NCBI RefSeq assembly: GCF_010671595.1
Contig: NZ_JAABOP010000001.1
Span: forward strand, 1 to 64,000
From: Muriicola jejuensis
GTDB taxonomy: Bacteria > Bacteroidota > Bacteroidia > Flavobacteriales > Flavobacteriaceae
Reading direction: 5' to 3'
DNA length: 64,000 nucleotides
Shown here: piece by piece, positions 1,019-36,975 of the stretch
Position numbering within the stretch: the stretch's first letter is position 1
How the letters are laid out: the number at the start of each line of letters is the position of its first letter
Position numbers and translations under genes: made by a program
Notes under the pieces: model-generated
What the model was told of the DNA's origin: nothing
What the model saw: the letters and a program-made list of their open reading frames with translations, nothing else
Databases searched by the model: none

Positions 1019-2275
1019 ATGAATAGAGTAATGAGAGGTTTACTATTATTTTTTGTTGCAGTGGTGCTTAATTTTTCTGTCTATGGGCAAGACAAAAAGA
1101 AAGACACTATTAAGATAAGAGATCTTTCAGGTCCAAACTCTGTGCATCAGCAGATTAATCAAGACACAACCTCAATAGAAACGTCTAATATATTGCCTGG
1201 GTTAGACGGTTTAGACCAATTGAAAGAAAGGTTTTATAAAAAAACTGGGTTTATAATTAATGCTGATTATAACTCACAAATAATGGCAGCTACCGAAGCC
1301 ATTGGAGATAATGTTGGTGCTAGTGGTGTGTTTCGTATTTATGGTAAGTATAATCTTGTTGGGAGAGGGACTTCACATGAGGGCGGTTTAGTGTTTAAAG
1401 TTGAAAACAGACATAGATACACCGACCTACCTTTACGTGAATGGGGACTTGCAGGAGTAGGTTATGCTGGTCTTATGCAATCTGTTTATAATGATGACAG
1501 GTGGCGTGTTACCAATCTTTATTGGAGACAAACATTTGCTAAGGCTAATATTGTTGCTTATGCTGGATTTCTGGATGTGACTGATTGGACTGACATTTTT
1601 GTATTGGCTAGCCCTTGGAGTAGTTTTAACAATCTATCATTTGCAACAGGTTCCAGTACTACCGGTGGTTCATACCCTGATGGTTCATTGGGCTTAATGG
1701 TTAGCGCATGGTTAACGGATAATATTTATGTTATAGGAGGTTTAATTGATGCTAATGGTAGTGCCAAAGAATTTTATAAAAGTTTTGATACGTTCTTTAC
1801 TGAATTTGAAACCCTCAAAACTTTTGAAGTTGGTTTTACACCGAATCCCGAAATGCCTATTTTACAAAACGTACATGTAACCTTATGGCAAGTAGACGAG
1901 ACAACAAGTGCTCCTAGTGGTTGGGGGCTTTCAGGCTCTATTAGCTGGGAGTTAGGTAATAAATTATTTCCATTCCTTAGAGGGGGCTGGGCAAATGATG
2001 GTGGTAGTTTTTTTACAGCCTCAGTCAGCGCAGGTATTGGTTATAATGTAATAGGATCAAACGTATTTGGATTAGGACTAAACTGGAACCAACCAAATAA
2101 AAATCTATTTGGTCCTGGCTTGAAAGATCAATACCTGTCTGAAATTTTCTACAAATTACAGGTTTCAAATCATGTTGAATTCACACCAAATCTACAATTC
2201 ATCATAAATCCAGCATTAAATACTAACGCAAACTTTACAACTATTTTCGGAGGACGTGCACGAATTAATATATAA
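1019..2275 (+). CDS. Carbohydrate-selective porin, OprB-like
   Basis: A 418-residue outer-membrane protein with an amino-terminal signal peptide ending near VYGQ. The body alternates short beta strands rich in Gly and aromatics. Its end, with LQFIINPALN followed by IFGGRARINI, is the characteristic last-strand pattern of OprB-type porins, where a long barrel ends in an 'INPA' strand. OprB porins let sugars and other small solutes cross the outer membrane; the substrate here is unknown. The start codon follows directly after an amidohydrolase remnant, and the next gene is a secreted amidohydrolase, suggesting a porin-enzyme unit. A decayed piece of a second copy of this gene lies at 3962-4081, so the unit was once duplicated. 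Confidence 0.8.
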   Translation: MNRVMRGLLLFFVAVVLNFSVYGQDKKKDTIKIRDLSGPNSVHQQINQDTTSIETSNILPGLDGLDQLKERFYKKTGFIINADYNSQIMAATEAIGDNVGASGVFRIYGKYNLVGRGTSHEGGLVFKVENRHRYTDLPLREWGLAGVGYAGLMQSVYNDDRWRVTNLYWRQTFAKANIVAYAGFLDVTDWTDIFVLASPWSSFNNLSFATGSSTTGGSYPDGSLGLMVSAWLTDNIYVIGGLIDANGSAKEFYKSFDTFFTEFETLKTFEVGFTPNPEMPILQNVHVTLWQVDETTSAPSGWGLSGSISWELGNKLFPFLRGGWANDGGSFFTASVSAGIGYNVIGSNVFGLGLNWNQPNKNLFGPGLKDQYLSEIFYKLQVSNHVEFTPNLQFIINPALNTNANFTTIFGGRARINI

Positions 2276-2337
2276 AGAAACTAGGAATTACTGTTGTAAA
2301 AAATTAAGATATAATACACACTACAATAATTTTATAA

Positions 2338-2672
2338 AATTAATTAATAACCAAAAAACAATGAAATATGAAAAAAGACAAAGCCTAACAAATAAAAATG
2401 ACATTAACATAATTTTAACTTTAACAAACCTATTTAGAATGAAAAAATTAAACTCGATTCTCGGTCTTGTAGTAGCATTAGTATTAATGAATCCTAATGT
2501 ATTTGCACAAGAAAAAAATGCACCCACTTACAAATTGATCACCAATGTAAATGTTTGGGATGGAACAAGTGACAAGCTGGTAAAAGCAGATGTATTAATT
2601 GAAAACAACCTAATTAAAGAGGTTAAGAACGGAATTACAGCACCTAAAGGTGCCACTGTAATAGACGGTAAG
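2338..2672 (+). repeat. Direct repeat, leader and 5' part of amidohydrolase A1
   Basis: The upstream region, signal-peptide region and first ~75 codons of A1 closely match 4079-4412. Identity stops sharply at the shared GTAATAGACGGT at 2661-2672, i.e. 4401-4412. This marks a recombination or gene-conversion boundary inside a coding region. Confidence 0.8.
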
Positions 2673-3839
2673 GGAGGCACAGTAATGCCTGGCTTAATTG
2701 AGGGGCACGGCCATTTATACTTGAATGGCTTAACTCTAGCGGATATTGAAAATAATAAAGGATATGATGAATTAGCGATTAGAGCAGCGGTAAAAGCTGA
2801 AGCTCATTTAATGTCTGGATTTACGACTTGGAGAGATGCAGGAGGAATGGGTACTGGGCTAAAGAAATCTATTGATGCAGGTATAGTAAATGGACCAAGA
2901 ATTTATCCCTCTGGTGCTTTAATTGGCCCATCCGGTTCTCACGCAGATTTTAGAAATTATACAACGCCTAACGAAACTATGTTTGGGGCCCATACTTCAG
3001 CCGCTCGCAATGCCATGAGTTTTACGGCTGATAGTCCGGAAGCGATTAAAACAGCAGCTCGCCAAAACTATATGCAAGGAGCAACTCAAATTAAAATCAT
3101 GTCCAGTGGTGGAATTGCTTCACAATTTGACCCTTGGCAATTAAATGCCTTCTCTGCAGAAGACATAAAAGCCGTTGTTGAAGTAGCAGATGCTTATGGT
3201 TCTTATGTAATGTCTCATGCGTACTCCAAGACAGCAATTATGAGGTGCTTAGATAATGGGGTAAAGACTATAGAGCATTGCTTAATGTTTGATGAAGATG
3301 TTGCCAAAAAATTGGTAGAAAAGGGAGCGTATATGACCACAAACGTGACGTCTTTCTCTCCTCTCATTGATCAACTGGATTATATACGCACAAGTCCAAT
3401 GTCTAAGAAAAAATATGAGTCTGCGAAAATAGCAACTAAAGACTTTGTTGCAAATGTTAAAAAATATCAACCAAAAATGGGGTTCAATTGTGATGCGATT
3501 GGCGATCTTCAAAACGGTATAACGCAAGCTGACTATTCCATTTATTTAAGTGGAGAGCTCTTTGGTAATTTATTTACGTTAAAATCGTTGACTTCTGTAA
3601 ATGGTGAAATAGTAAAACTTGTAGGAGACGTTCTAGACCCATATTTTGAAGGAGATTTAGGCGTAGTAAAACCTGGAGCCTATGCAGATCTTCTTATCGT
3701 AGCCGGAAATCCATTAGAAGACTTAACACTTATTGGAGCTAATGAAAAATGGTTTGATGCATCTGGACGTGCTGGTGATGATATCCCAGGAATGAAGCTT
3801 GTCATGAAAGATGGCAAAGTATATAAGAATACTTTGTAA
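2439..3839 (+). CDS. Secreted metal-dependent amidohydrolase A1
   Basis: A 466-residue enzyme of the imidazolonepropionase/prolidase-like amidohydrolase group. I chose the ATG at 2439 because it begins a proper signal peptide (MKKLNSILG... ending VFAQ); the frame is open further upstream but without such a signal. The TIM-barrel metal ligands can all be placed: HxH at His90 and His92 (EGHGH), the carboxylated Lys219, His260, His280 and Asp352 (NCD instead of the usual GTD/GSD of the paralogues). Family members cleave dipeptides, N-acyl amino acids or cyclic amides; the true substrate cannot be read from sequence. The first part, up to about base 2672, is almost identical at DNA level to the gene at 4180-4412, after which the two diverge abruptly. 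A strong terminator follows at 3890. Confidence 0.85.
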   Translation: MKKLNSILGLVVALVLMNPNVFAQEKNAPTYKLITNVNVWDGTSDKLVKADVLIENNLIKEVKNGITAPKGATVIDGKGGTVMPGLIEGHGHLYLNGLTLADIENNKGYDELAIRAAVKAEAHLMSGFTTWRDAGGMGTGLKKSIDAGIVNGPRIYPSGALIGPSGSHADFRNYTTPNETMFGAHTSAARNAMSFTADSPEAIKTAARQNYMQGATQIKIMSSGGIASQFDPWQLNAFSAEDIKAVVEVADAYGSYVMSHAYSKTAIMRCLDNGVKTIEHCLMFDEDVAKKLVEKGAYMTTNVTSFSPLIDQLDYIRTSPMSKKKYESAKIATKDFVANVKKYQPKMGFNCDAIGDLQNGITQADYSIYLSGELFGNLFTLKSLTSVNGEIVKLVGDVLDPYFEGDLGVVKPGAYADLLIVAGNPLEDLTLIGANEKWFDASGRAGDDIPGMKLVMKDGKVYKNTL

Positions 3840-3889
3840 GTAAGCCGTCCTAAAATAAGTGGACATATTTATATTGTTAATTTAATAAA

Positions 3890-3920
3890 AAACGGAGAAG
3901 CTAGCTTCTCCGTTTCTATA
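3890..3920 (+). terminator. Terminator after amidohydrolase A1
   Basis: A perfect stem AACGGAGAAG (3891-3900) pairs with CTTCTCCGTT (3905-3914) around a CTAG loop, about 50 bases after the A1 stop. The flanking A and T stretches would serve transcription termination in either direction. Confidence 0.7.
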
Positions 3921-3961
3921 CATCATTTTGGTAGCCATGACTATTCTCGCGGGAATATTGA

Positions 3962-4081
3962 ATGGTTATAACTAACTCACAAATAATGGGAGTTATAATC
4001 AGCAATTGGCGATGATGTTAGTGCTGGGGGTGTTTCGTATTTATGGTAAGAATAATTTTGTTGGTAGAGGCACTCCACATA
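3962..4081 (+). pseudogene. OprB-like porin fragment
   Basis: The stretch aligns with 1258-1380 of the porin gene, for example the shared GTGTTTCGTATTTATGGTAA, but carries indels and no open frame of any length. It joins directly to a copy of the intergenic region found upstream of A1. The simplest history is tandem duplication of a porin-amidohydrolase unit followed by internal deletion of most of the second porin. Confidence 0.75.
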
Positions 4082-4412
4082 AAAATAATTAATAACAATA
4101 AAAAAAATGAAATATGAAAAAGCACAAACCCAACAAATAAAAATGACATTACCATAATTTTAATTTTCACCATAGAAACATGAAAAAAATAAACTCGATT
4201 CTCATTCTTATTGTGGCATTATGTTTAATGAATCCTAATGTATTTGCACAAGAAAAAAAAAACACCCACTTACAAATTAATCACCAATGTAAATGTTTGG
4301 GATGGAACAAGTGATAAGCTGGTAAAAGCAGATGTATTAATTGAAAACAACTTAATTAAAGAGGTTAGCAGTGGAATTAAAGCTCCTAAAGGTGCCACTG
4401 TAATAGACGGTG
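4079..4412 (+). repeat. Direct repeat, leader and 5' part of amidohydrolase A2
   Basis: This is the second copy of the 2338-2672 sequence: upstream spacer, signal-peptide region and first ~75 codons. A few substitutions and a longer A run distinguish it from the first copy. Confidence 0.8.
4180..4314 (+). other. Out-of-frame signal peptide upstream of amidohydrolase A2 (A10 run)
   Basis: The ATG at 4180 is the counterpart of the A1 start and encodes a good signal peptide (MKKINSILIL... ending VFAQE). The frame then enters a run of ten A at 4253-4262 and continues into a wrong frame that stops at the TGA at 4312-4314. The enzyme body is read in the next frame. A1 has only seven A at this place. 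Removing one A (or adding two) would rejoin signal peptide and enzyme. It could be phase variation, transcriptional slippage, a dead gene or a sequencing error in a homopolymer. Confidence 0.75.
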
Positions 4413-5521
4413 GCGGGCGCACGCTGATGCCCGGGCTGATTGACGCTCACTGGCATACGCTGCTCTCTTCTATTACGTTAGAGGAAGGTCAATCGGAAGA
4501 AGCGGACTATCTGCATGCTCGCGCGATTGTCGGCGCGGAAAAAACGCTCCTGCGGGGTTTTACCACTGTCCGTGATGTCGGCGGGCCGGTTTTTGGTATT
4601 AAGAAAGCCATTGATGAAGGATTACTTGAGGGGCCGCGCATTTTCCCCAGTGGGGCATTGATCTCCCAGACTTCAGGGCATGGTGATTTCGGTCATGTGT
4701 GGGACGGTCCGCGTGCCTTCGGAGCGGGTCCACCACGATTTGAGCAGCTTGGGATCTCCCGGGTGGCAGACGGGGTGGATGAAGTTCTCGCGGCCACACG
4801 CTACAACCTGAAGCAAGGGGCGACTCAGATTAAAGTTATGGCCGGCGGGGGTGTATCTAGCCTGTACGATCAATTGTATGTCAATGAATATACTGCTGAA
4901 GAACTAAAAGCTATCGTGGATGCGGCGTCTGACTGGGGTACCTACGTTACCGTGCATATTTACAACGAAGAAGGAATCGCCCGGGCATTGAACGCCGGCG
5001 TTAAGGGTATCGAGCATGGACACCTGATGAGTGAAGAAAGTGCAAAACTCATGGCGGAGAAGGGCGCCTGGCTGTGCATCCAGCCGTTTTACAAAGATAT
5101 TCCGGGTGCAGAGACATTAGACCCAGGTCGCTATGCAAAGTTTATGCAGGTCGTAGACGGTTTTGATAGGACAATGAAACTTGTTAAAAAATATAACCTG
5201 AACATGGCCTATGGAACAGACCTACTCTTTTCACCGAAAACCAACGGTCAGCAGGGTGATCTTTTTGCCCGATTTAAAAACTATTATAACGATGTTGAGA
5301 TCCTTCGTATGGCAACTTCCAACAACGCCACGTACTTTGAATTGAGCGGACCAGGGCATCCCTACAAGGAGGGACCGCTGGGCGTAATTAAGCAAGGTGC
5401 CTACGCCGATATCCTGTTGGTAGATGGAGATCCTTTAAAAGACGTCTCGATCTTGGGTGAAGATGGAAAGAACATCCCGATGGTCATGAAGGACGATAAA
5501 ATATACAAGAATACTTTATAA
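4238..5521 (+). CDS. Metal-dependent amidohydrolase A2 (signal peptide out of frame)
   Basis: The enzyme frame, 427 residues from the ATG at 4238, begins with a few residues (MYLHKKKK) that are only the signal-peptide region read in another frame; the natural start is probably at 4180 with a frameshift at the A10 run. All catalytic motifs are intact: HxH in DAHWH (His71/His73), the Lys in TQIKVMAGG, His in VTVHIY, His in GIEHGHLM and Asp in YGTD. The first ~60 residues match A1. From about base 4412 to about 5150 the DNA becomes strikingly GC-rich with CTG/CGC/GGC codons unlike the rest of the array, then returns to AT-rich sequence. The gene therefore looks like a three-part mosaic with a middle part gained by transfer. 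If read from 4238 the protein would stay in the cytoplasm, unlike its paralogues. Confidence 0.75.
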   Translation: MYLHKKKKTPTYKLITNVNVWDGTSDKLVKADVLIENNLIKEVSSGIKAPKGATVIDGGGRTLMPGLIDAHWHTLLSSITLEEGQSEEADYLHARAIVGAEKTLLRGFTTVRDVGGPVFGIKKAIDEGLLEGPRIFPSGALISQTSGHGDFGHVWDGPRAFGAGPPRFEQLGISRVADGVDEVLAATRYNLKQGATQIKVMAGGGVSSLYDQLYVNEYTAEELKAIVDAASDWGTYVTVHIYNEEGIARALNAGVKGIEHGHLMSEESAKLMAEKGAWLCIQPFYKDIPGAETLDPGRYAKFMQVVDGFDRTMKLVKKYNLNMAYGTDLLFSPKTNGQQGDLFARFKNYYNDVEILRMATSNNATYFELSGPGHPYKEGPLGVIKQGAYADILLVDGDPLKDVSILGEDGKNIPMVMKDDKIYKNTL

Positions 5522-10475: not shown

Positions 10476-10661
10476 TAATAACTTCGGGCGATAAAACGGG
10501 GGCCATCTATCAAATTAGAGTAAAGGGGGAGCTCAATACTACCCTTTTGAATGCGGTAGATGATTTGATCTTAATCAATCATAACATAAGTAAAGCATCT
10601 CAGGATATGTTCTACCAAAAAACTAACACATTCTGAGATGTTAATTAAAAACATAACAAAT

Positions 10662-11195
10662 ATGAAAACATTACAAAAACTGTGGTGGTTAACCTTCTTA
10701 AGAGGGGTTATACTTTTAATACTCGCTTTTTTTGTATTTCGCCATCCGGTGAATGCACTTATGGGCGTGGCTATCTACATTGGGATTAGCTTATTGATTA
10801 CAGGAATATTACAGACTGCAGCATCAATTGGGTTTAAAGATTTATTTCCTAATTGGGAGTATATCCTTGCCGGAGGGCTTCTTGATATTGTATTCGGGTT
10901 TGTACTCTTATCTAACCCGGCACTTACGGCAAGTACACTGCCCTTTGTAGTAGGGTTTTGGATCATGGTTTCGGGTATCATGTCGTTTTCAGACGCTTTT
11001 CAAAGTAAAAAAGAAGGCAATTCCCTTTGGGCCTTAAGTATGCTAGGCGGCGTGCTGTCCGTATTGATAGGTTACCTTATTATGAGCAATATAGTAGTTG
11101 GAGTACTTACCATTACCACATGGATGGGGATTGGATTTGCTATTGCCGGCATTGTGAACATTACCATTGGATTAAAATTAAAATCATTAAAATAA
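10662..11195 (+). CDS. HdeD-like membrane protein (DUF308)
   Basis: A 177-residue integral membrane protein with six predicted helices arranged as three pairs, the usual layout of the HdeD/DUF308 family; HdeD of E. coli is linked to acid resistance at high cell density. I chose ATG 10662 (MKTLQKLWWLTFLRG) rather than ATG 10638 because homologues begin with such a WWLxxLRG segment. The stop is 13 bases before amidohydrolase A3, so the gene probably heads an operon with A3, the deacylase and A5. Its exact role beside secreted hydrolases is unknown. Confidence 0.8.
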   Translation: MKTLQKLWWLTFLRGVILLILAFFVFRHPVNALMGVAIYIGISLLITGILQTAASIGFKDLFPNWEYILAGGLLDIVFGFVLLSNPALTASTLPFVVGFWIMVSGIMSFSDAFQSKKEGNSLWALSMLGGVLSVLIGYLIMSNIVVGVLTITTWMGIGFAIAGIVNITIGLKLKSLK

Positions 11196-11208: not shown

Positions 11209-12546
11209 ATGAAAAGAATAGTACTGGTATCCATACTTTGCATCCTCAGCTTAGGGCTATTCGCCCAGGAAAAACCAAAGCCAATTACACTTTTCACTAA
11301 CGTCCAAGTTTTTGATGGAAAAACTGACAAGCTGATCAAGGCAGATGTTTTGGTTGAGGGAAATCTGATCAAACAAATATCCAAAGAGCCTTTGATGGTG
11401 ATGCAAACCGATAATGTATCCATTATTGATGGAGGTGGGCGCACGCTGATGCCAGGTCTTATTGACGCACATGTGCATCTTTCATTAAATATGAATTTTA
11501 TCTCTATGTTTTATCAATCTCCAGACTATCTGGCAATACGAGCTATAGATGAAGCAAAAAACACTTTAATGCGAGGCTTTACTTCTGTAAGAGATACAGG
11601 AGGAGAAGTATTAGGAATAAAATTAGCCATTGATCAAGGTTATGCAATTGGGCCACGTATTTGGGCTGCAGGTGCAGGGATTTGTATGACGGGTGGGCAT
11701 GCAGATTTAAGACCTCAAGCTCAAAGACCACGTCAATTAGGAGGTCCAGTTTATTACGATGGGGAATTTAACGGGATTACAGTGATTGCTGATGGTGTGC
11801 CAGAAGTATTAAGCGCTGCCCGACTCCAAATGCGTAAAGGTGCTGCATTTTTAAAAATGTTTACAAGTGGAGCAGTAAGTGGGATGTATGATCCTTTAGA
11901 TATTGGTGAGTATTCTTTCGAAGAAATTAAAGCTGCTGCAGATGAAGCAAAAAGATGGAATACTTATTTAGCTGTGCATTCATATAATGACAAAGGGGTA
12001 AGTTTAGCTTTAGAAGCTGGTGCAATGTCTATTGAACATGCAAATTTAATGACAGAAGAAACCATGAAGCTACTTGTTGAAAAAGGTGCGTTCTTAAGTA
12101 CACAAACTGGAGTTTATTTTTCAGATGCACCTGAAAACTGGAGCGAAGAAAGCAAAATGAAACATGATAAAGCTAGAGATGGTATAGACAACTTGTTTAA
12201 GTTAGCAAAAAAATACAATGCCAAAATTACTATTGGTAGTGATTATGTTGACAATGCAGAGCAGAAAAAAGGACAGTCTTTTGAACTGAGCAATAGATTA
12301 AAATGGTGGACAGCTCCAGAAATCTTAAGTCAAGCCACTTCTGGAAATGCTGAAGTACTTTATTTTAGTGGTCCTCGTAATCCCTATCCTGGAAAACTAG
12401 GTGTGATTGAAGAAGGTGCTTTGGCTGACATTCTATTAATTGATGGAAATCCCTTAGAAGATTTAACACTATTTCACGATCCTGAAAACAATCTAGATCT
12501 TATCATGAAAGATGGAAAAATCTATAAAAACACAATTGAAAGATAA
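11209..12546 (+). CDS. Secreted metal-dependent amidohydrolase A3
   Basis: A 445-residue enzyme with signal peptide (cut near LFAQ). Catalytic residues are in place: DAHVH (His88, His90), Lys in AFLKMFTSG, His in LAVHSYND, His in SIEHANLM and Asp in IGSDYVD. The first ~85 residues (LFTNVQVFDG, KADVLVEGNLIKQISKEPL, DNVSIIDGGG) are very close to those of the enzyme at 14152, while the rest is clearly different, repeating the mosaic pattern of A1/A2. The ending NPLEDLTLF plus DLIMKDGKIYKNT is the shared carboxy-terminal beta-sandwich. It is tightly spaced between the HdeD-like gene and the deacylase gene. Substrate specificity is unknown; family members act on dipeptides and N-acyl amino acids. 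Confidence 0.85.
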   Translation: MKRIVLVSILCILSLGLFAQEKPKPITLFTNVQVFDGKTDKLIKADVLVEGNLIKQISKEPLMVMQTDNVSIIDGGGRTLMPGLIDAHVHLSLNMNFISMFYQSPDYLAIRAIDEAKNTLMRGFTSVRDTGGEVLGIKLAIDQGYAIGPRIWAAGAGICMTGGHADLRPQAQRPRQLGGPVYYDGEFNGITVIADGVPEVLSAARLQMRKGAAFLKMFTSGAVSGMYDPLDIGEYSFEEIKAAADEAKRWNTYLAVHSYNDKGVSLALEAGAMSIEHANLMTEETMKLLVEKGAFLSTQTGVYFSDAPENWSEESKMKHDKARDGIDNLFKLAKKYNAKITIGSDYVDNAEQKKGQSFELSNRLKWWTAPEILSQATSGNAEVLYFSGPRNPYPGKLGVIEEGALADILLIDGNPLEDLTLFHDPENNLDLIMKDGKIYKNTIER

Positions 12547-12629
12547 TTAAGCTACTCAAATTGAAAAAAATAATAACAACTATTGCATTAATGCTAGCTT
12601 TAAGTAGCTTGAATGCACAAGAAAAACCT
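12528..12629 (+). repeat. Direct repeat: intergenic plus signal-peptide region, copy 1
   Basis: About 100 bases covering the end of A3, the spacer and the deacylase signal peptide closely match 14119-14220. Differences are few; among them is the start codon, TTG here against ATG in the second copy. Confidence 0.8.
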
Positions 12630-14117
12630 GCTGAGTATGACCTTGTCATTCTTAACGGAAGAGTAATGGACCCTGAAACCATGTTTGATGCTATTGCAAA
12701 CGTTGGAATTAAAGACGGGAAAATTGTAATGATTACTAAAAGTAAAATTACAGGTAAAGAAATAATTAACGCAAAAGGTCATGTTGTTGCTCCAGGTTTC
12801 ATTGATCCACATAGCCACAACGTTCCAACTCCATTTGGTCAAAAATTAGCCTTAAGAGATGGTGTAACAACACCACTAGAATTAGAACTTGGAGTGTTGC
12901 CTATCAATTTTTGGTATGATCAAATGAAGGGAAAATCACAAACGAATTACGGTGCTTCTGCTAGTATTGAAGCGGCTCGAGAAAAAATACTTAATCCTAC
13001 CTACCAAACATCTGATGCAGCACTTATCAATGATGCCTCGATAATGGATGAAACCCATCTTTCCATGGCTTGGTCAAAAGATGTTGCTTCCGATGAACAA
13101 GTAAACCAGATTCTTGATTTAGTTGAAGAAGGATTAAAGCAAGGTGGTCTTGGTATTGGTTACACACCTGGTTATATGGTCTACGGAGTAAGGTCTGAAG
13201 AAGGTGTTGGCGCACAAAAGTTGGCTGGTAAATACAGACGTTTCGTTTATTTACACGGTCGGTTTTCAGGTCAACTCCCTCCTAATGACGGACTAACCGG
13301 CACATTGCAACAGCTAGGTGCTGCAGAAGCTTATGGAGGTGGTCTGGTTATCGCACATATGACGGCACAGACTTTAAGTCAAACAAAAGAAGCACAGGCG
13401 ATTATAGATGCCGCTGCTAGAAAAGGTATTCCTGTTATATCTGAAATATATGCCTATACCTATGGTTCTACTATCGTTGCTGCCGACTATCTTGAACCAG
13501 ATAATTATCAAAATAATATGGGACATGATTATAAAGATATTGTCAATTTAACAGACATGAAGCCCTTAACAAAAGAAACCTACGAACAACTAAAAAAAGA
13601 TGCTCCTACTACTAATGTAACGTTTGAGAATGCTACGAAGGAAGATTTATATTGGGCACTTTCCCACCCTACTTCTATTATAGGTAGTGATGCTTTCCCT
13701 GGTGTTTCAAAGATAGACAAATCTCTCCCTAAAGATTGGGATACACCCTATGAATCTGTCAATGCTCACCCTCGAGGTGCTGGAACTCATGCTCGAATTT
13801 TAAGATTAGTACGGGAAGAAAATTTAATGTCTTTAATGTTGGCCGTTTCCAAAATGACTTTTATGCCAGCTAAATTTCTTCAGGAAAATGGAGTAGATCA
13901 AATGGCGAACAAAGGACGATTACAAGTGGGTAAAGACGCAGACATAACAATTTTTGATCCTGCTACCATCAAAGATAATGCAACACCACAAATGGGTACT
14001 TTACCATCTACAGGTATTCCTTACGTGATAGTCAATGGTACAGTTGTGGTTAAAGATTCTAAAGTTTTAAAAGATGTTTATCCAGGACAACCGATTCGAG
14101 CAGAAATTCAAGAATAA
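12561..14117 (+). CDS. N-acyl-D-amino-acid deacylase-like amidohydrolase A4
   Basis: A 518-residue secreted enzyme of the D-aminoacylase branch. The start is TTG at 12561, supported by a signal peptide (KIITTIALMLALSSLNAQ) whose DNA is nearly identical to that of A5, where the codon is ATG. Motifs: PGFIDPHSH (His84, His86), LRDGVTTPLELELG where a Glu takes the place of the bridging ligand as in D-aminoacylases, YLHGRFSG, IAHMTAQ, IGSDAFPG, and HPRGAGTHARIL, which is diagnostic of the family. Members remove acyl groups from N-acyl-D-amino acids (or act on D-glutamate derivatives). It lies 14 bases after A3 and 34 before A5 and is clearly in their operon. Confidence 0.85.
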   Translation: MKKIITTIALMLALSSLNAQEKPAEYDLVILNGRVMDPETMFDAIANVGIKDGKIVMITKSKITGKEIINAKGHVVAPGFIDPHSHNVPTPFGQKLALRDGVTTPLELELGVLPINFWYDQMKGKSQTNYGASASIEAAREKILNPTYQTSDAALINDASIMDETHLSMAWSKDVASDEQVNQILDLVEEGLKQGGLGIGYTPGYMVYGVRSEEGVGAQKLAGKYRRFVYLHGRFSGQLPPNDGLTGTLQQLGAAEAYGGGLVIAHMTAQTLSQTKEAQAIIDAAARKGIPVISEIYAYTYGSTIVAADYLEPDNYQNNMGHDYKDIVNLTDMKPLTKETYEQLKKDAPTTNVTFENATKEDLYWALSHPTSIIGSDAFPGVSKIDKSLPKDWDTPYESVNAHPRGAGTHARILRLVREENLMSLMLAVSKMTFMPAKFLQENGVDQMANKGRLQVGKDADITIFDPATIKDNATPQMGTLPSTGIPYVIVNGTVVVKDSKVLKDVYPGQPIRAEIQE

Positions 14118-14118
14118 G

Positions 14119-14220
14119 AAACACAATTGAAAAATAATTAAACTACTCAAAATGAAAAAAATAATAACAACTATTGCATTAATGGTAGTTTTAAGTAGCT
14201 TGAATGCACAAGAAAAACCC
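14119..14220 (+). repeat. Direct repeat: intergenic plus signal-peptide region, copy 2
   Basis: This is the second copy of 12528-12629, placed so that the same leader and signal peptide now precede a different enzyme (A5 instead of the deacylase). It shows that leaders move between catalytic bodies in this array. Confidence 0.8.
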
Positions 14221-15492
14221 AAACAGATTACCCTTTTTACGAATGTACAAGTCTTTGACGGCACATCCGATAAGTTGATCAAGGCAGATGTGTTGGTGGA
14301 GGGAAACCTGATCAAACAAATATCCAAAGAACCTCTAATGGTTGCGCAAACTGATAATGTAAGCATTATTGACGGAGGAGGAAAAACGCTGATGCCGGGT
14401 TTGACTGACGCCCACACGCACATTATGTGGACTGATGATATCGAAAATCTGATTTATAGTGCCCCGGAGGGGTGGTCGGGCACACTTGCAGCAGTTAACG
14501 CAGGTGAAATGCTACAACGCGGATTTACAACTATTCGAGACAACGGCGGCCCAGCTTTCGGATTAAAAAAAGCAATTGATGAACATATCATTCCTGGTCC
14601 GCGAATTCTTCCTGCGGGTGCGTTTATATCTCAAACGTCAGGTCACGGTGATTATGACCAACGCATGTTCTATTTATCACCGCACTTTACCGGTCAGATT
14701 GACAAGGCCTACATCCGTGGTTGGACCATAGTTGCTGATGGCGTGGCTGAAGTACAGAAGGCCTCACGAGATGTTCTTCGGTCAGGAGCAACACATCTCA
14801 AAGTCTTTGGTAGCGGAAGCATTACCGGCGCTCATGACCCGATAGATGTCACAGAGTATACCTATGAAGAACTCAAAGCGCTTGCCGATGAAACAAAAAA
14901 ATGGGGAACATACGCAGCGATACACGCTTACAGCGATGAGGGCATCCAAAACGCAATTAAAGCCGGTATAAAAAGTATTGAACATGGTCTATTCGCTTCA
15001 GAAGAAACCATGGAAATGATTAAAAAAAATGATGTGTGGTTTTCAACTCAGTTTTTAGCTTTTAGTTTGCCTCCAGAAAAGGCGGGAATGAAAGGGGAGG
15101 CTGTTTCCAAGTATCTAACCGCACAAGAAGGCGCTCAAAAAGGGTATGAACGTGCTAAAAAATATGGTGTGAAAATGACGTTTGGTACCGATATTTTAGG
15201 TTCGCTAGAACTTCACCGTATGCAAAATTTAGAATTTACAGCCCGAAGCAAGTACTTTACTCCGTATGAAATATTGAAGCAAGCTACATCGCAAAATGCA
15301 GAACTCTTTGAATTATCCGGAGAGCGCCATCCCTATAAGGAAGGTAAGCTAGGTGTTATCGAAGAAGGCGCATATGCGGATTTGCTGCTAGTAAACGGCA
15401 ACCCTCTTGAAGATATATCGCTGTTAGCTGCACCAGATAAAAATTTATCTTTAATTATGAAAGATGGCGTAATTTATAAAAATAGTCTGTAA
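14152..15492 (+). CDS. Secreted metal-dependent amidohydrolase A5
   Basis: A 446-residue enzyme. Its signal peptide (KKIITTIALMVVLSSLNAQ) is shared with the preceding deacylase, the next ~70 residues are shared with A3, and the catalytic body resembles A2 more (PRILPAGAFISQTSGHGDYD against PRIFPSGALISQTSGHGDFG). The ligands are present: DAHTH (His88, His90), Lys in THLKVFGSG, His in AAIHAYSD, His in SIEHGLF and Asp in FGTDILG. The carboxy-terminal strands (YADLLLVNGNPLEDISLL) are those found as a remnant at 853-1008. It is the last enzyme of the HdeD-A3-A4-A5 run; 178 bases later the second beta-barrel copy begins. Confidence 0.85.
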   Translation: MKKIITTIALMVVLSSLNAQEKPKQITLFTNVQVFDGTSDKLIKADVLVEGNLIKQISKEPLMVAQTDNVSIIDGGGKTLMPGLTDAHTHIMWTDDIENLIYSAPEGWSGTLAAVNAGEMLQRGFTTIRDNGGPAFGLKKAIDEHIIPGPRILPAGAFISQTSGHGDYDQRMFYLSPHFTGQIDKAYIRGWTIVADGVAEVQKASRDVLRSGATHLKVFGSGSITGAHDPIDVTEYTYEELKALADETKKWGTYAAIHAYSDEGIQNAIKAGIKSIEHGLFASEETMEMIKKNDVWFSTQFLAFSLPPEKAGMKGEAVSKYLTAQEGAQKGYERAKKYGVKMTFGTDILGSLELHRMQNLEFTARSKYFTPYEILKQATSQNAELFELSGERHPYKEGKLGVIEEGAYADLLLVNGNPLEDISLLAAPDKNLSLIMKDGVIYKNSL

Positions 15493-15670: not shown

Positions 15671-16588
15671 ATGAAAAAAATGTTAAAAATTAAGAAGTAT
15701 TTATTTCTTTTAATGATGCTATTTTCAGCATTGATAAATGCACAGGAAGCACAAGAAACCCAAGATAAACCAAGTGCAGATGAGCTGGCAAAAGAATTAG
15801 CCAATCCCAATAATACAAGGGGTACCTTGAACTTTAACTTTGATTATGTGCATTATCAGGGAGAATTACCCGGAGCTAAAAGTCAAAATAGCTTTGCGAT
15901 GGGTTTTCAACCCGTCCTTCCAGTACCGTTAAATAAGACGACGAATCTTTTTGTAAGACCCAATATCCCCCTTTATTTTACGCAGCCGACATTTGGGGCG
16001 AACGGGTTTGAAAATCAGGGATTCGGTCTGGGGAATATCAGCGCCGATATTGCGATAGGAAAAACATTTCCATCAAAAACTATTGGTATCCTTGGTGTAT
16101 TTGGTAGTTTTAGAACGGCTAGCAATGAGGCCTTACGATCTCCTTATACCTTATTAGGTCCTGAAATCATGGTTTCTCAACTTTTTAAATGGGGTGTTGT
16201 CGGGCTTATGGTAAATCACTCATGGAATTTGAATAAGATTGACCCATCTACGAATGATAGTTTTTCTATTTTGGGTGATGATGTATGGATTTCATCAGAA
16301 GGAGGAGAATCTGCTAGTATTACAGCTGGACAATATGTTTATGCAGTTAGCTTGAGTAATGGTTGGCAAATCATGTCGAGTCCAACCTGGTCTTATAATC
16401 ACAACGCCTCAAAAGGGAATAAATTAACCCTTCCCCTTGCTACTGGTGTAACTAAAGTAACACATTTTGGTAAATTACCTATAAAGTTTAATCTGCAATA
16501 TTGGTATTATGTGGCATCTCCAGAGGCATTTGGTCCACAACATCAGATCCGATTAACAATATCTCCTGTTGTGCCTTTACCTTGGTAA
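15671..16588 (+). CDS. Outer-membrane beta-barrel protein, copy 2 (intact)
   Basis: A 305-residue protein with an amino-terminal signal peptide (hydrophobic core LFLLMMLFSALINA, cut near NAQ), a short linker (ETQDKPSADELAKELANP) and a beta-barrel that ends VVPLPW. It is the complete version of the partial gene at 1-783; the overlapping parts are almost identical at DNA level. Family-level similarity is to transporter-like barrels of the MetA/phenol-degradation type; I cannot assign a substrate. Its place after the amidohydrolases suggests that it exports or imports compounds connected with them. Such high identity points to very recent duplication or ongoing gene conversion. Confidence 0.85.
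   Translation: MKKMLKIKKYLFLLMMLFSALINAQEAQETQDKPSADELAKELANPNNTRGTLNFNFDYVHYQGELPGAKSQNSFAMGFQPVLPVPLNKTTNLFVRPNIPLYFTQPTFGANGFENQGFGLGNISADIAIGKTFPSKTIGILGVFGSFRTASNEALRSPYTLLGPEIMVSQLFKWGVVGLMVNHSWNLNKIDPSTNDSFSILGDDVWISSEGGESASITAGQYVYAVSLSNGWQIMSSPTWSYNHNASKGNKLTLPLATGVTKVTHFGKLPIKFNLQYWYYVASPEAFGPQHQIRLTISPVVPLPW
15806..16588 (+). repeat. Long direct repeat, right copy (matches 1-783)
   Basis: This is the partner of the left repeat at bases 1-783, same orientation, offset 15805. The true left edge cannot be seen because the first copy is cut by the window. Confidence 0.9.
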
Positions 16589-16616
16589 TTAAATTAAAAT
16601 AATAGCATATGAATGA

Positions 16617-36678: not shown

Positions 36679-36753
36679 TCGGGGTGGCAGGATTCGAACC
36701 TGCGGCCTCCTGCTCCCAAAGCAGGCGCGATAACCGGGCTACGCTACACCCCG
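36679..36753 (-). tRNA. tRNA-Pro (anticodon TGG)
   Basis: The minus strand folds as a cloverleaf: acceptor CGGGGTG/CACCCCG with discriminator A, anticodon arm CCTGC-TTTGGGA-GCAGG giving TGG, and T-arm GGTTCGAATCC. The 3' CCA is not encoded. It is 75 bases long and lies downstream of tRNA-Ser on the same strand. Confidence 0.95.
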
Positions 36754-36891
36754 TAGCAGCTAAAGCTGCAAATTCCAATAAATAAATTCCAAAACCTAAA
36801 TTACTATTATTAATGGCAATCTGGGTAAATGAAATATGAACTTTATACTGGCGGACCTGTCCGCCGGAGCTACGCTCTTGCGTAGCGAAGG

Positions 36892-36975
36892 CGGAGAGAC
36901 TGGGACTCGAACCCAGGCGACACTTACGCGTCGACAGATTAGCAATCTGCTCCGTTACCACTCCGGCACCTCTCC
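36892..36975 (-). tRNA. tRNA-Ser (anticodon GCT)
   Basis: The minus strand starts GGAGAGG, has the anticodon arm CAGATTGCTAATCTG (GCT), a long variable arm pairing CGAC with GTCG typical of serine tRNAs, and T-arm GGTTCGAGTCC; the discriminator is G and CCA is not encoded. It is 84 bases long. Between it and tRNA-Pro two GC-rich hairpins (GGCGGAC/GTCCGCC and CTACGCT/GCGTAG) occur. Confidence 0.93.

Follow-up and report, generated by a model that had tools for sequence, protein, structure and literature searches.

The window, by which we mean the whole 64,000-nucleotide stretch of the Muriicola jejuensis genome analysed here, carries a row of amidohydrolase genes (A1 to A5, Table 1) in which the neighbours A1 and A2 are much alike at their 5' ends and far less alike behind, and the question raised by this locus is which of the two parts has moved. 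The first-pass annotation held that an export/start module stays fixed while catalytic bodies are exchanged behind it, a reading that we regard as rather unlikely. As judged from sequence comparison, recombination between paralogues probably copies the 5' module, which consists of the leader and the sandwich, repeatedly from one array gene to another.

Table 1. Positions of the array genes, their exchanged parts and their neighbours in the window
Feature	Position	Strand	Basis
OprB-type porin gene, 5' neighbour of A1	1019..2275	+	Pfam OprB 8e-20; 84% aa G630, 88% aa A. marinus
A1 front module (leader, signal peptide, amino-terminal segment)	2334..2672	+	84% to 4079-4456; breakpoint 2669
A1 amidohydrolase, signal-peptide-like start	2439..3839	+	Amidohydro_1; 92% aa A. 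marinus, 79% aa G630
Porin gene fragment before A2	3955..4080	+	79.7% to 1253-1378; matching fragment in A. marinus
A2 front module, A1-type (putative copy)	4079..4412	+	Identity to A1, G+C, breakpoint
A2 signal-peptide coding sequence, out of frame with body	4180..4251	+	Translation from 4180 meets stops
A2 open reading frame	4238..5521	+	Amidohydro_1; model mean pLDDT 92.6
Run of 10 A, site of +1 frame difference from A1	4253..4262	+	Alignment to A1
A2 body	4413..5482	+	51.4% G+C, with 34.6% and 27.8% in its two flanks; 96% aa to A. marinus
A2 3' tail, extending beyond the stop codon	5483..5536	+	81% to A1 3801-3854
HdeD-like DUF308 gene, 5' neighbour of A3	10638..11195	+	Pfam DUF308 78 bits
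A3 amidohydrolase	11209..12546	+	Amidohydro_1; 95% aa in G630
End of A3, gap and A4 leader	12524..12628	+	94% to 14114-14219
A4 amidohydrolase, other subfamily	12561..14117	+	Amidohydro_3; NCBIfam PRK09061
A5 leader and signal peptide, A4-type	14114..14219	+	94% to 12524-12628
A5 amidohydrolase	14152..15492	+	Amidohydro_1; 91-92% aa in G630 (91% over 383 residues compared)
A5 amino-terminal segment, A3-type	14206..14414	+	80% to 11263-11471

Protein family and fold of the array enzymes

With Pfam Amidohydro_1 scores of 81, 114.7, 115.1 and 131.7 bits (gathering score, 25), A1, A2, A3 and A5 are assigned to the COG1228 prolidase-like branch of the amidohydrolase superfamily, and A1 is predicted to be secreted. 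Against the NCBIfam model for Xaa-Pro dipeptidase, NF051886, all scores (168.7, 224.6, 199.3 and 240.2 bits) lie below the curated cut-off of 500. The best sequence and fold matches of the array are the COG1228-type prolidases and carboxypeptidases of PDB entries 3mkv and 3feq/3n2c, which we take to be the work of Xiang et al. (2010), and the A2 model reaches TM scores of.87–.88 to 3mkv and.89 to 3n2c. A2 is, however, only 35–38% identical to these solved enzymes, and their substrate can therefore not be transferred to it.

The six columns H71, H73, K199, H240, H260 and D328 (A2 numbering) are present in the nine array proteins checked and invariant in 29 aligned sequences; presumably they represent the HxH motif, a carboxylated lysine, two histidines and an aspartate that bind the metal. 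The bodies of A1 and A2 had been called unrelated, but by their sequences they are homologous metal-dependent amidohydrolases: both belong to Amidohydro_1, they share about 35% protein identity and all six ligand columns, and the two solved structures closest to them are the same. By its strand order the model of A2, the only array protein modelled, contains a barrel and a beta-sandwich formed from both sequence ends, a layout that we assume is known from the family, and the A1/A2 breakpoint separates the amino-terminal beta-sandwich from the barrel.

A sharp step in identity between A1 and A2

By blastn, A1 2334–2714 and A2 4079–4456 are 84.5% identical. The break is best placed at A1 2669, where identity falls from 87% of bases on the left to 50% on the right, a step reached by 0 of 2000 column shuffles. 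The sharp drop described before is confirmed, three bases away from the 2672 given for it. The description of the fronts as nearly identical was overstated, since identity is 76% upstream, 88% in the signal peptide, and 95% and then 86% in the parts that follow. We infer that the A1 front module was the donor of the A2 front.

Such a step could also arise with no recombination at all if purifying selection acted more strongly on the front than on the body, and 29 relatives do conserve the sequence that precedes the HxH motif. The step is, however, equally strong at third codon positions (88% in the front vs 35% in the body), and the likeness continues into the non-coding DNA upstream. Moreover, between more distant relatives the front can change faster than the body (G539/G495, 44% and 40% vs 67% of DNA), and the mean front excess among 718 cross-genome pairs is just.031. 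Selection without recombination is accordingly very unlikely; it would require likeness at replacement sites only, which the third positions contradict, and constraint as the sole cause is rejected on these positions together with the non-coding homology.

A2 as a probable composite gene

The A2 body, with a GC3 of 53% over 4412–5518, is richer in G+C than both of its flanks (Table 1) and has A1 homology on either side, which agrees with a fixed module behind which bodies change. Because of this G+C contrast and the tail shared with A1 past the stop codon, we consider that the A2 body was probably replaced once, in an older event that set higher-G+C DNA inside an A1-like frame and that probably predates the split of the window and Algoriphagus marinus copies of A2. 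The idea of a kept module and an exchanged barrel is supported for this one event only; otherwise it is mostly the fronts that appear to have been exchanged. The porin fragment before A2 suggests a remnant of the donor's upstream neighbour.

In A2 the segment containing the run of ten A is one base longer than its A1 counterpart, which puts the signal peptide and the body in different frames, and the reading frame called at 4238 is without a signal peptide in this assembly. This frame difference could be a homopolymer error, and the window begins at a contig end within a repeat; nevertheless, an assembly or sequencing artefact that joined different genes is extremely improbable, as A. marinus has the same order, porin-A1-A2-DcaP, along 6.2 kb and boundaries of the A1/A2 kind are found in other assemblies too.

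Shared fronts and mixed leaders in A3 to A5

A3 and A5 had been said to repeat the pattern of A1 and A2, which is correct for the amino-terminal segment but not for the leaders. The two genes are 80% identical over 11263–11471 and 14206–14414, and when they are tested from codon 25 the best break comes after A1-equivalent codon 89 (81% left, 53% right, 0/1000). With upstream DNA included, the best single break moves to 11262, where identity rises from 39% to 58% (2/2000) because the A3 and A5 leaders differ. The A5 leader is A4-like in the window, where its source would be the segment that runs from the end of A3 across the gap into the A4 leader, and A3-like in G630, a genome of the window's family. 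The HdeD-like gene before A3 scores 45.7 bits with the NCBIfam HdeD model, below the cut-off of 189; a fragment of a homologue stands before A5 in G630 and is only 56% identical to the window protein, so that the donor was not this very window copy.

Fragments of a donor's neighbour are thus present at the fronts of A2 (porin), A5 of G630 (HdeD-like) and A5 of the window (end of A3). Their position before the fronts argues against a fixed module, and leaders copied together with pieces of the donor's 5' neighbour suggest the direction of copying. The shared 3' tail, the porin fragment before A2 and the A4-type leader of A5 had not been recorded in the first-pass annotation.

The same bodies behind different fronts

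Close relatives were sought with the DNA around A1 in a sample of 395 genomes from the order. Apart from the copies in the window itself, this gave nothing but short matches (25–156 bases), in 41 others; G630 was evidently missed by this sample and was found via the porin. A1, A3, A4 and A5 are present in G630, and A1 and A2 in A. marinus. Viral contigs contained no relative of the array, and plasmid matches, in 136 records (E up to 1e-60), remained below 60% identity.

Orthologous bodies are 82–99% alike in the DNA segments tested, whereas the fronts joined to the matched A2, A3 and A5 bodies vary, which again speaks against the fixed module. At third codon positions, front and body identities between orthologues are.59 and.89 for A2 (p 3.5e-7),.62 and.89 for A3 (p 5.6e-6), and.47 and.85 for A5 (p 1.2e-8); with bodies at 85–89% and fronts at 47–62%, what has been exchanged is mostly the front. 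For A1, three comparisons of orthologues at third positions gave no significant difference between front and body. The amino-terminal segment of A2 is A1-like in the window, while its second half is A3-like in A. marinus, and as a guide to polarity the 79 relatives of the A2 body are divided, this second half being nearer the A. marinus type in 29 and the window type in 46, with 3 ties and 1 lacking an anchor. Low leader identity proves nothing by itself because the leaders of true orthologues differ too; between the A1 genes of the window and A. marinus, a break at 2494 separates 76% from 94% identity. Whether related genomes hold the same fixed combinations therefore has a divided answer: the bodies and mostly their order are fixed, but the front ends are not. 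Body swapping as the main process is rejected, since the bodies keep their places between the window, A. marinus and G630.

In three of four comparisons, the fronts of paralogues within a genome are closer than those of orthologues over a bounded tract. The A3 and A5 fronts of G630 agree at 148/159 sites vs 133/159 (p.013) and 127/159 (p.0009) for the orthologues, and the window A1 and A2 fronts at 140/153 vs 107/153 for the A2 orthologue (p 2e-6); the window A3 and A5 fronts (129/159) showed no excess over A5 orthologues (127/159, p.89). Trees, from which SB73, G045 and G033_c were left out, separate the two histories as well. The body data reject the grouping of A1 with A2 (p-AU 1.7e-144) and of A3 with A5 of G630 (p-AU 1.9e-57), while the front data join the A3 and A5 fronts of both genomes (support 100/99) and reject A5 kept with its own body family (p-AU 0.012). 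With the short front data, pairing of orthologues remained acceptable for A2 (p-AU.19), A3 (.18) and A5 (.16), and the window A1 and A2 are grouped in the front tree with a weak 37/77.

Arrays in other genomes

Further copies were sought in 196 sampled genomes (E up to 1e-90) and breakpoints in 17 pairs. The same front excess occurs in arrays of three further genomes. Of 21 pairs compared within genomes, 6 have a front that exceeds the barrel after correction, and in all 6 the excess is greater than the maximum (.241) among the 718 cross-genome pairs, a background without pairs among the focal three genomes, barrel third-position identities >.5 or parts with <20 sites; the other 15, including window A3/A5 (p.0022), gave no corrected front signal. 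This survey omits the opposite-strand pair of L102, SB73 a/c, which was compared separately, and non-tandem copies. One pair of the 21, C245 b/c, has a corrected carboxy-terminal signal, both of its ends being alike (.71 and.72 at third positions) and its barrel not (.35).

Recent tandem duplication followed by fast adaptive divergence of the barrels would suit the tandem layout, and the barrels carry the substrate pockets. In the six significant pairs, however, barrels have fallen to.30–.38 at third positions while fronts remain at.59–.88, the A2 body differs in G+C, and the bodies belong to separate clades; we therefore regard recent duplication as highly improbable.

Discussion

The array displays sharp boundaries, separate histories of fronts and bodies, one body behind different fronts, and fragments of donor neighbours. 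Paralogue recombination would account for these features by one-way copying, through gene conversion or unequal homologous recombination, among the amidohydrolase genes in a row. The copied 5' module would comprise leader DNA, the signal peptide and the amino-terminal strands of the beta-sandwich, and copying would tend to end in the conserved sequence immediately before and around the HxH metal-binding motif, a block of DNA in which homology between the paralogues persists, while the barrels would keep their places and be inherited or transferred as units. The module is likely to function in any array gene because leader, export signal and sandwich presumably do not set substrate choice. None of the present results supports the first-pass proposal that exchange diversifies the substrate range of the secreted enzymes. 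The agent of copying would be ordinary homologous recombination. As regards site-specific inversion of the shufflon type, the 27 proteins of the window and the single one from the adjoining contig that were scanned for other purposes include no recombinase. Promoter and terminator scans of the window were near chance (12 vs 9.4 and 4 vs 2.8), and Rfam gave two tRNAs only.

The process is a known one, and it is the repeated boundary that is unusual. Outer-membrane protein paralogues of Helicobacter have shared ends and diverged middles shaped by conversion, but they are surface adhesins and the array genes encode hydrolases. Among the matches listed in a literature search (titles and beginnings of abstracts), none dealt with conversion in amidohydrolase arrays. 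Conversion between the diverged bacterial paralogues RF1 and RF2 was likewise partial, confined to about one domain (domain 3), with two cases in opposite directions (PMC4530459); those are release-factor genes, whereas here the genes form a neighbouring row, and the leader, the export signal and pieces of adjacent genes move as well. The array also resembles the prokaryotic paralogues under concerted evolution (26 genes) of which copies within a genome are closer than orthologues, synonymous sites included; the words "amidohydrolase", "partial" and "N-terminal" are absent from that source's main text (PMC6053082).

More broadly, and only tentatively, tandem secreted amidohydrolases of Bacteroidota may possess an exchangeable frame that recombination homogenises within a genome while old, distinct barrels are preserved; it is perhaps composed, an equally tentative point, of the leader, the signal peptide and both sequence ends that form the beta-sandwich. 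The array suggests a natural, repeated experiment in which the amino-terminal sandwich is movable between barrels that are ~35–55% identical in protein, with a natural cut point just before the metal-binding motif. Phylogenies inferred from the fronts of such genes can mislead, and expression leaders can spread within catabolic arrays. If general, the finding would hint at where to cut chimeric hydrolases and at how a common frame for export and expression is maintained in arrays.

Shared fronts and the position of the joint

In the row of amidohydrolase genes A1-A5, the front of A1, that is, leader DNA, signal peptide and amino-terminal segment, aligns with that of A2 at 84.5% identity (blastn; 2334-2714 versus 4079-4456). 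Identity is 87% to the left and 50% to the right of the best breakpoint, which follows A1 position 2669, and none of 2000 column shuffles reached the observed value, which bears out the sharp drop described in the first-pass annotation. By segment, identity is 76% upstream and 88% in the signal peptide; the first half of the amino-terminal segment reaches 95% and the second 86%, after which it falls to 67% over the next 42 bases and then to 40-48%. A3 and A5 share 80% across 209 bases in the same gene part, and the leader of A5 is 94% identical to that of A4, which belongs to a different subfamily from the other four. The catalytic bodies, which had been called unrelated, are not so: A1, A2, A3 and A5 all match Amidohydro_1 and keep six metal-ligand columns, and A1 and A2 have the same two best solved relatives, 3mkv and 3feq.

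In the A2 model (mean pLDDT 92.6), strands at residues 12-57, which we take to be a sandwich, come first, followed by those at 62-65 and 67-72, presumably the first barrel strand; the HxH motif occupies residues 71 and 73, and the joint in the window lies around residues 57-60. When breakpoints were sought in 17 pairs (A1 codon numbering, HxH at codons 90-92, 1000 shuffles), seven had their best one at codons 77-93, and a clear break was absent from AL24 b/c and the G520, G688 and G498 pairs (41 to 359 of 1000 shuffles).

Genes of the window and gene pairs compared. G630 is a genome of the window's family; AL, C, SB and G codes denote other genomes, with a/b/c as copies.
Feature or pair	Window position	Best breakpoint (A1 codon)	Front > barrel after correction
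A1	2439-3839		
A2 open frame	4238-5521		
Window A1/A2; G630 A3/A5; AL20; C330 b/c		77-93	yes
Window A3/A5; C185; SB73 b/c		77-93	
G033 a/b		97	
Algoriphagus marinus A1/A2		50	yes
C245 b/c		373-416, end part more alike	yes
C330 a/b; AL24 a/b		373-416, end part more alike	
C245 a/b		296	

Among 21 within-genome pairs surveyed with correction for 42 tests, the front was more alike than the barrel in six, by about.27 to.53, all above the maximum (.241) of 718 cross-genome background pairs. The remaining 15, including those from G520, G688 and G498, stayed below the corrected threshold, and the carboxy-terminal part exceeded the barrel in one pair (C245 b/c). Since six pairs were significant and fifteen failed, the process, as read from sequence, recurs in three genomes besides the focal ones (window, A. 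marinus am2 and G630), yet is not universal.

Which part moves

At third codon positions (front, codons 28-78; body, codons 93-454), front and body identities between genomes are.59 and.89 for A2,.62 and.89 for A3, and.47 and.85 for A5, and the three A1 comparisons give.84/.91,.90/.81 and.86/.83. Within genomes, the values are.88/.35 for window A1/A2,.81/.40 for G630 A3/A5,.59/.32 for A. marinus A1/A2 and.60/.36 for window A3/A5. From these identities we infer that the bodies stay put and that A2, A3 and A5 have acquired new fronts in one or other of the genomes compared. The mosaic pattern is real, well bounded and recurrent, but the moving part is mostly not the one first proposed, namely a barrel exchanged behind a fixed start module; the sole event that would fit this idea is the probable replacement of the A2 body. 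The A1-like stretch extends to codon 77 in window A2; in A. marinus A2 it gives way at about codons 50-55 to an A3-like one. The trees are in partial agreement with this. Groupings of A1 with A2 and of A3 with A5 are strongly rejected by the body data. The front tree unites the A3 and A5 fronts with firm support (100/99), has the A. marinus A2 front adjoining them (98/99), and places the window A2 front among A1 fronts with weak support. With such short fronts, the front data fail to reject the orthologue pairs.

The directions of copying seem to be A1 to A2, A3 to A5 and A4 to A5, because the fronts come after a piece of the gene that lies upstream of the presumed donor. A piece of the porin, the gene upstream of A1, precedes A2 both in A. 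marinus and in the window; in G630, A5 is preceded by the last 88 residues (of 185) of an HdeD-like gene, and in the window HdeD lies upstream of A3. In the shortest and weakest case, window A5 follows the last 23 bases of A3, the gene upstream of A4, and an A4-type leader. The HdeD piece is 56% identical in amino acids to the window protein, so its donor would be a relative of the window arrangement and not a window copy. Between DUF3299 and HdeD, 10227-10351 matches the 3' end of the A. marinus regulator gene (L058 3849-3973) at 74% and is possibly a regulator remnant.

A1-type DNA lies on both sides of A2, as porin fragment and leader 5' and as 54 bases 3' extending beyond the stop codon, and for this reason replacement of the body within an A1-like copy, at a time when the A2 copies of window and A. 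marinus had not yet separated, is the likeliest origin of A2. The A2 body has 51.4% G+C (GC3 53%), against 34.6% in the amino-terminal segment and 27.8% in the tail; in A. marinus the body has 50.5% and the flanks 37-38%. In A2, the signal-peptide sequence (4180-4251) and the body lie in different frames, the change occurring at a run of ten consecutive A (4253-4262), and the A. marinus region is in frame; an error, a frame break that is fixed, or a run of varying length might each explain it. The first-pass annotation overlooked both this frame difference and the presence of A1-type DNA on both sides. The run is one of four A/T runs of at least 9 within the 64 kb. Part of the porin remnant (3973-4004) matches A. 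marinus L058 7587-7556 inverted at 100%, so the gap before A2 was also rearranged.

Distribution and surroundings of the array

Among the best 80 of at least 578 relatives in named genomes, the closest to the A2 body is in the A. marinus array stretch L058 (96% amino acid identity; next 53%). Porin, A1, A2 and DcaP follow one another in A. marinus as they do in the window, with 90% DNA identity across 6.2 kb. The G630 order is regulator, porin, A1, ABC transporter, permease, DUF3299, A3, A4, A5 and outer-membrane-like gene; A2 and DcaP are absent from the 40 kb examined of that array region, and A5 as query at 1e-60 found only A5, A3 and A1 in the whole genome. One of eight genomes in G630's genus gave a match, namely G630 itself. 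A2 was matched at 1e-60 in 23 of 72 genomes of the Algoriphagus group, A. marinus being the sole close one (92%; next 50%), and in none of eight further genomes assigned to the window's genus, of which three are less than 90% complete. Porin, A1, A2 and DcaP are 88-92% identical in amino acids between window and A. marinus, the outer-membrane-like gene just 73%, and the array genes compared with G630 79-98%, against 63% (A. marinus) and 80% (G630) for a thiolase outside the array. This patchiness, together with the contrast to the thiolase, the one outside gene compared, favours spread of the array by lateral transfer.

The outer-membrane-like gene, without a Pfam match, forms a direct repeat flanking the array (1-799 and 15806-16603, 99.4%), which could permit loss or amplification of the intervening 15.8 kb; the stretches examined in G630 and A. 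marinus have one copy each. The neighbouring contig C21 probably precedes the window, because its end (L138) has an identical 119-base overlap with the start of the window and bears a MalT-like LuxR regulator with 82% DNA identity to that upstream of the porin in G630. G+C is about 38% over 1-36600 and mostly 45-54% past two tRNA genes (36679-36975) to 64000, a change resembling an island edge; no integrase was found among the proteins scanned.

Mechanism and possible function

The mechanism is probably homologous recombination between linked paralogues, which would enter through the shared leader DNA and exit in the conserved block that precedes the metal site; the proteins scanned, a subset of all, included no recombinase. 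The OprB-type porin, the signal-peptide-like starts of the amidohydrolases and the MalT-like regulator on the neighbouring contig point to a putative role in taking up and cleaving peptide-like or N-acyl compounds; A1, A2, A3 and A5 score below the Xaa-Pro dipeptidase cut-off. No report of conversion in amidohydrolase arrays was found among literature titles and abstract starts. Processes of this kind are already known, as the portions consulted of PMC4530459 and PMC6053082 indicate, and the variant here is a catabolic array in which the joint falls repeatedly at a domain boundary and leaders travel along.
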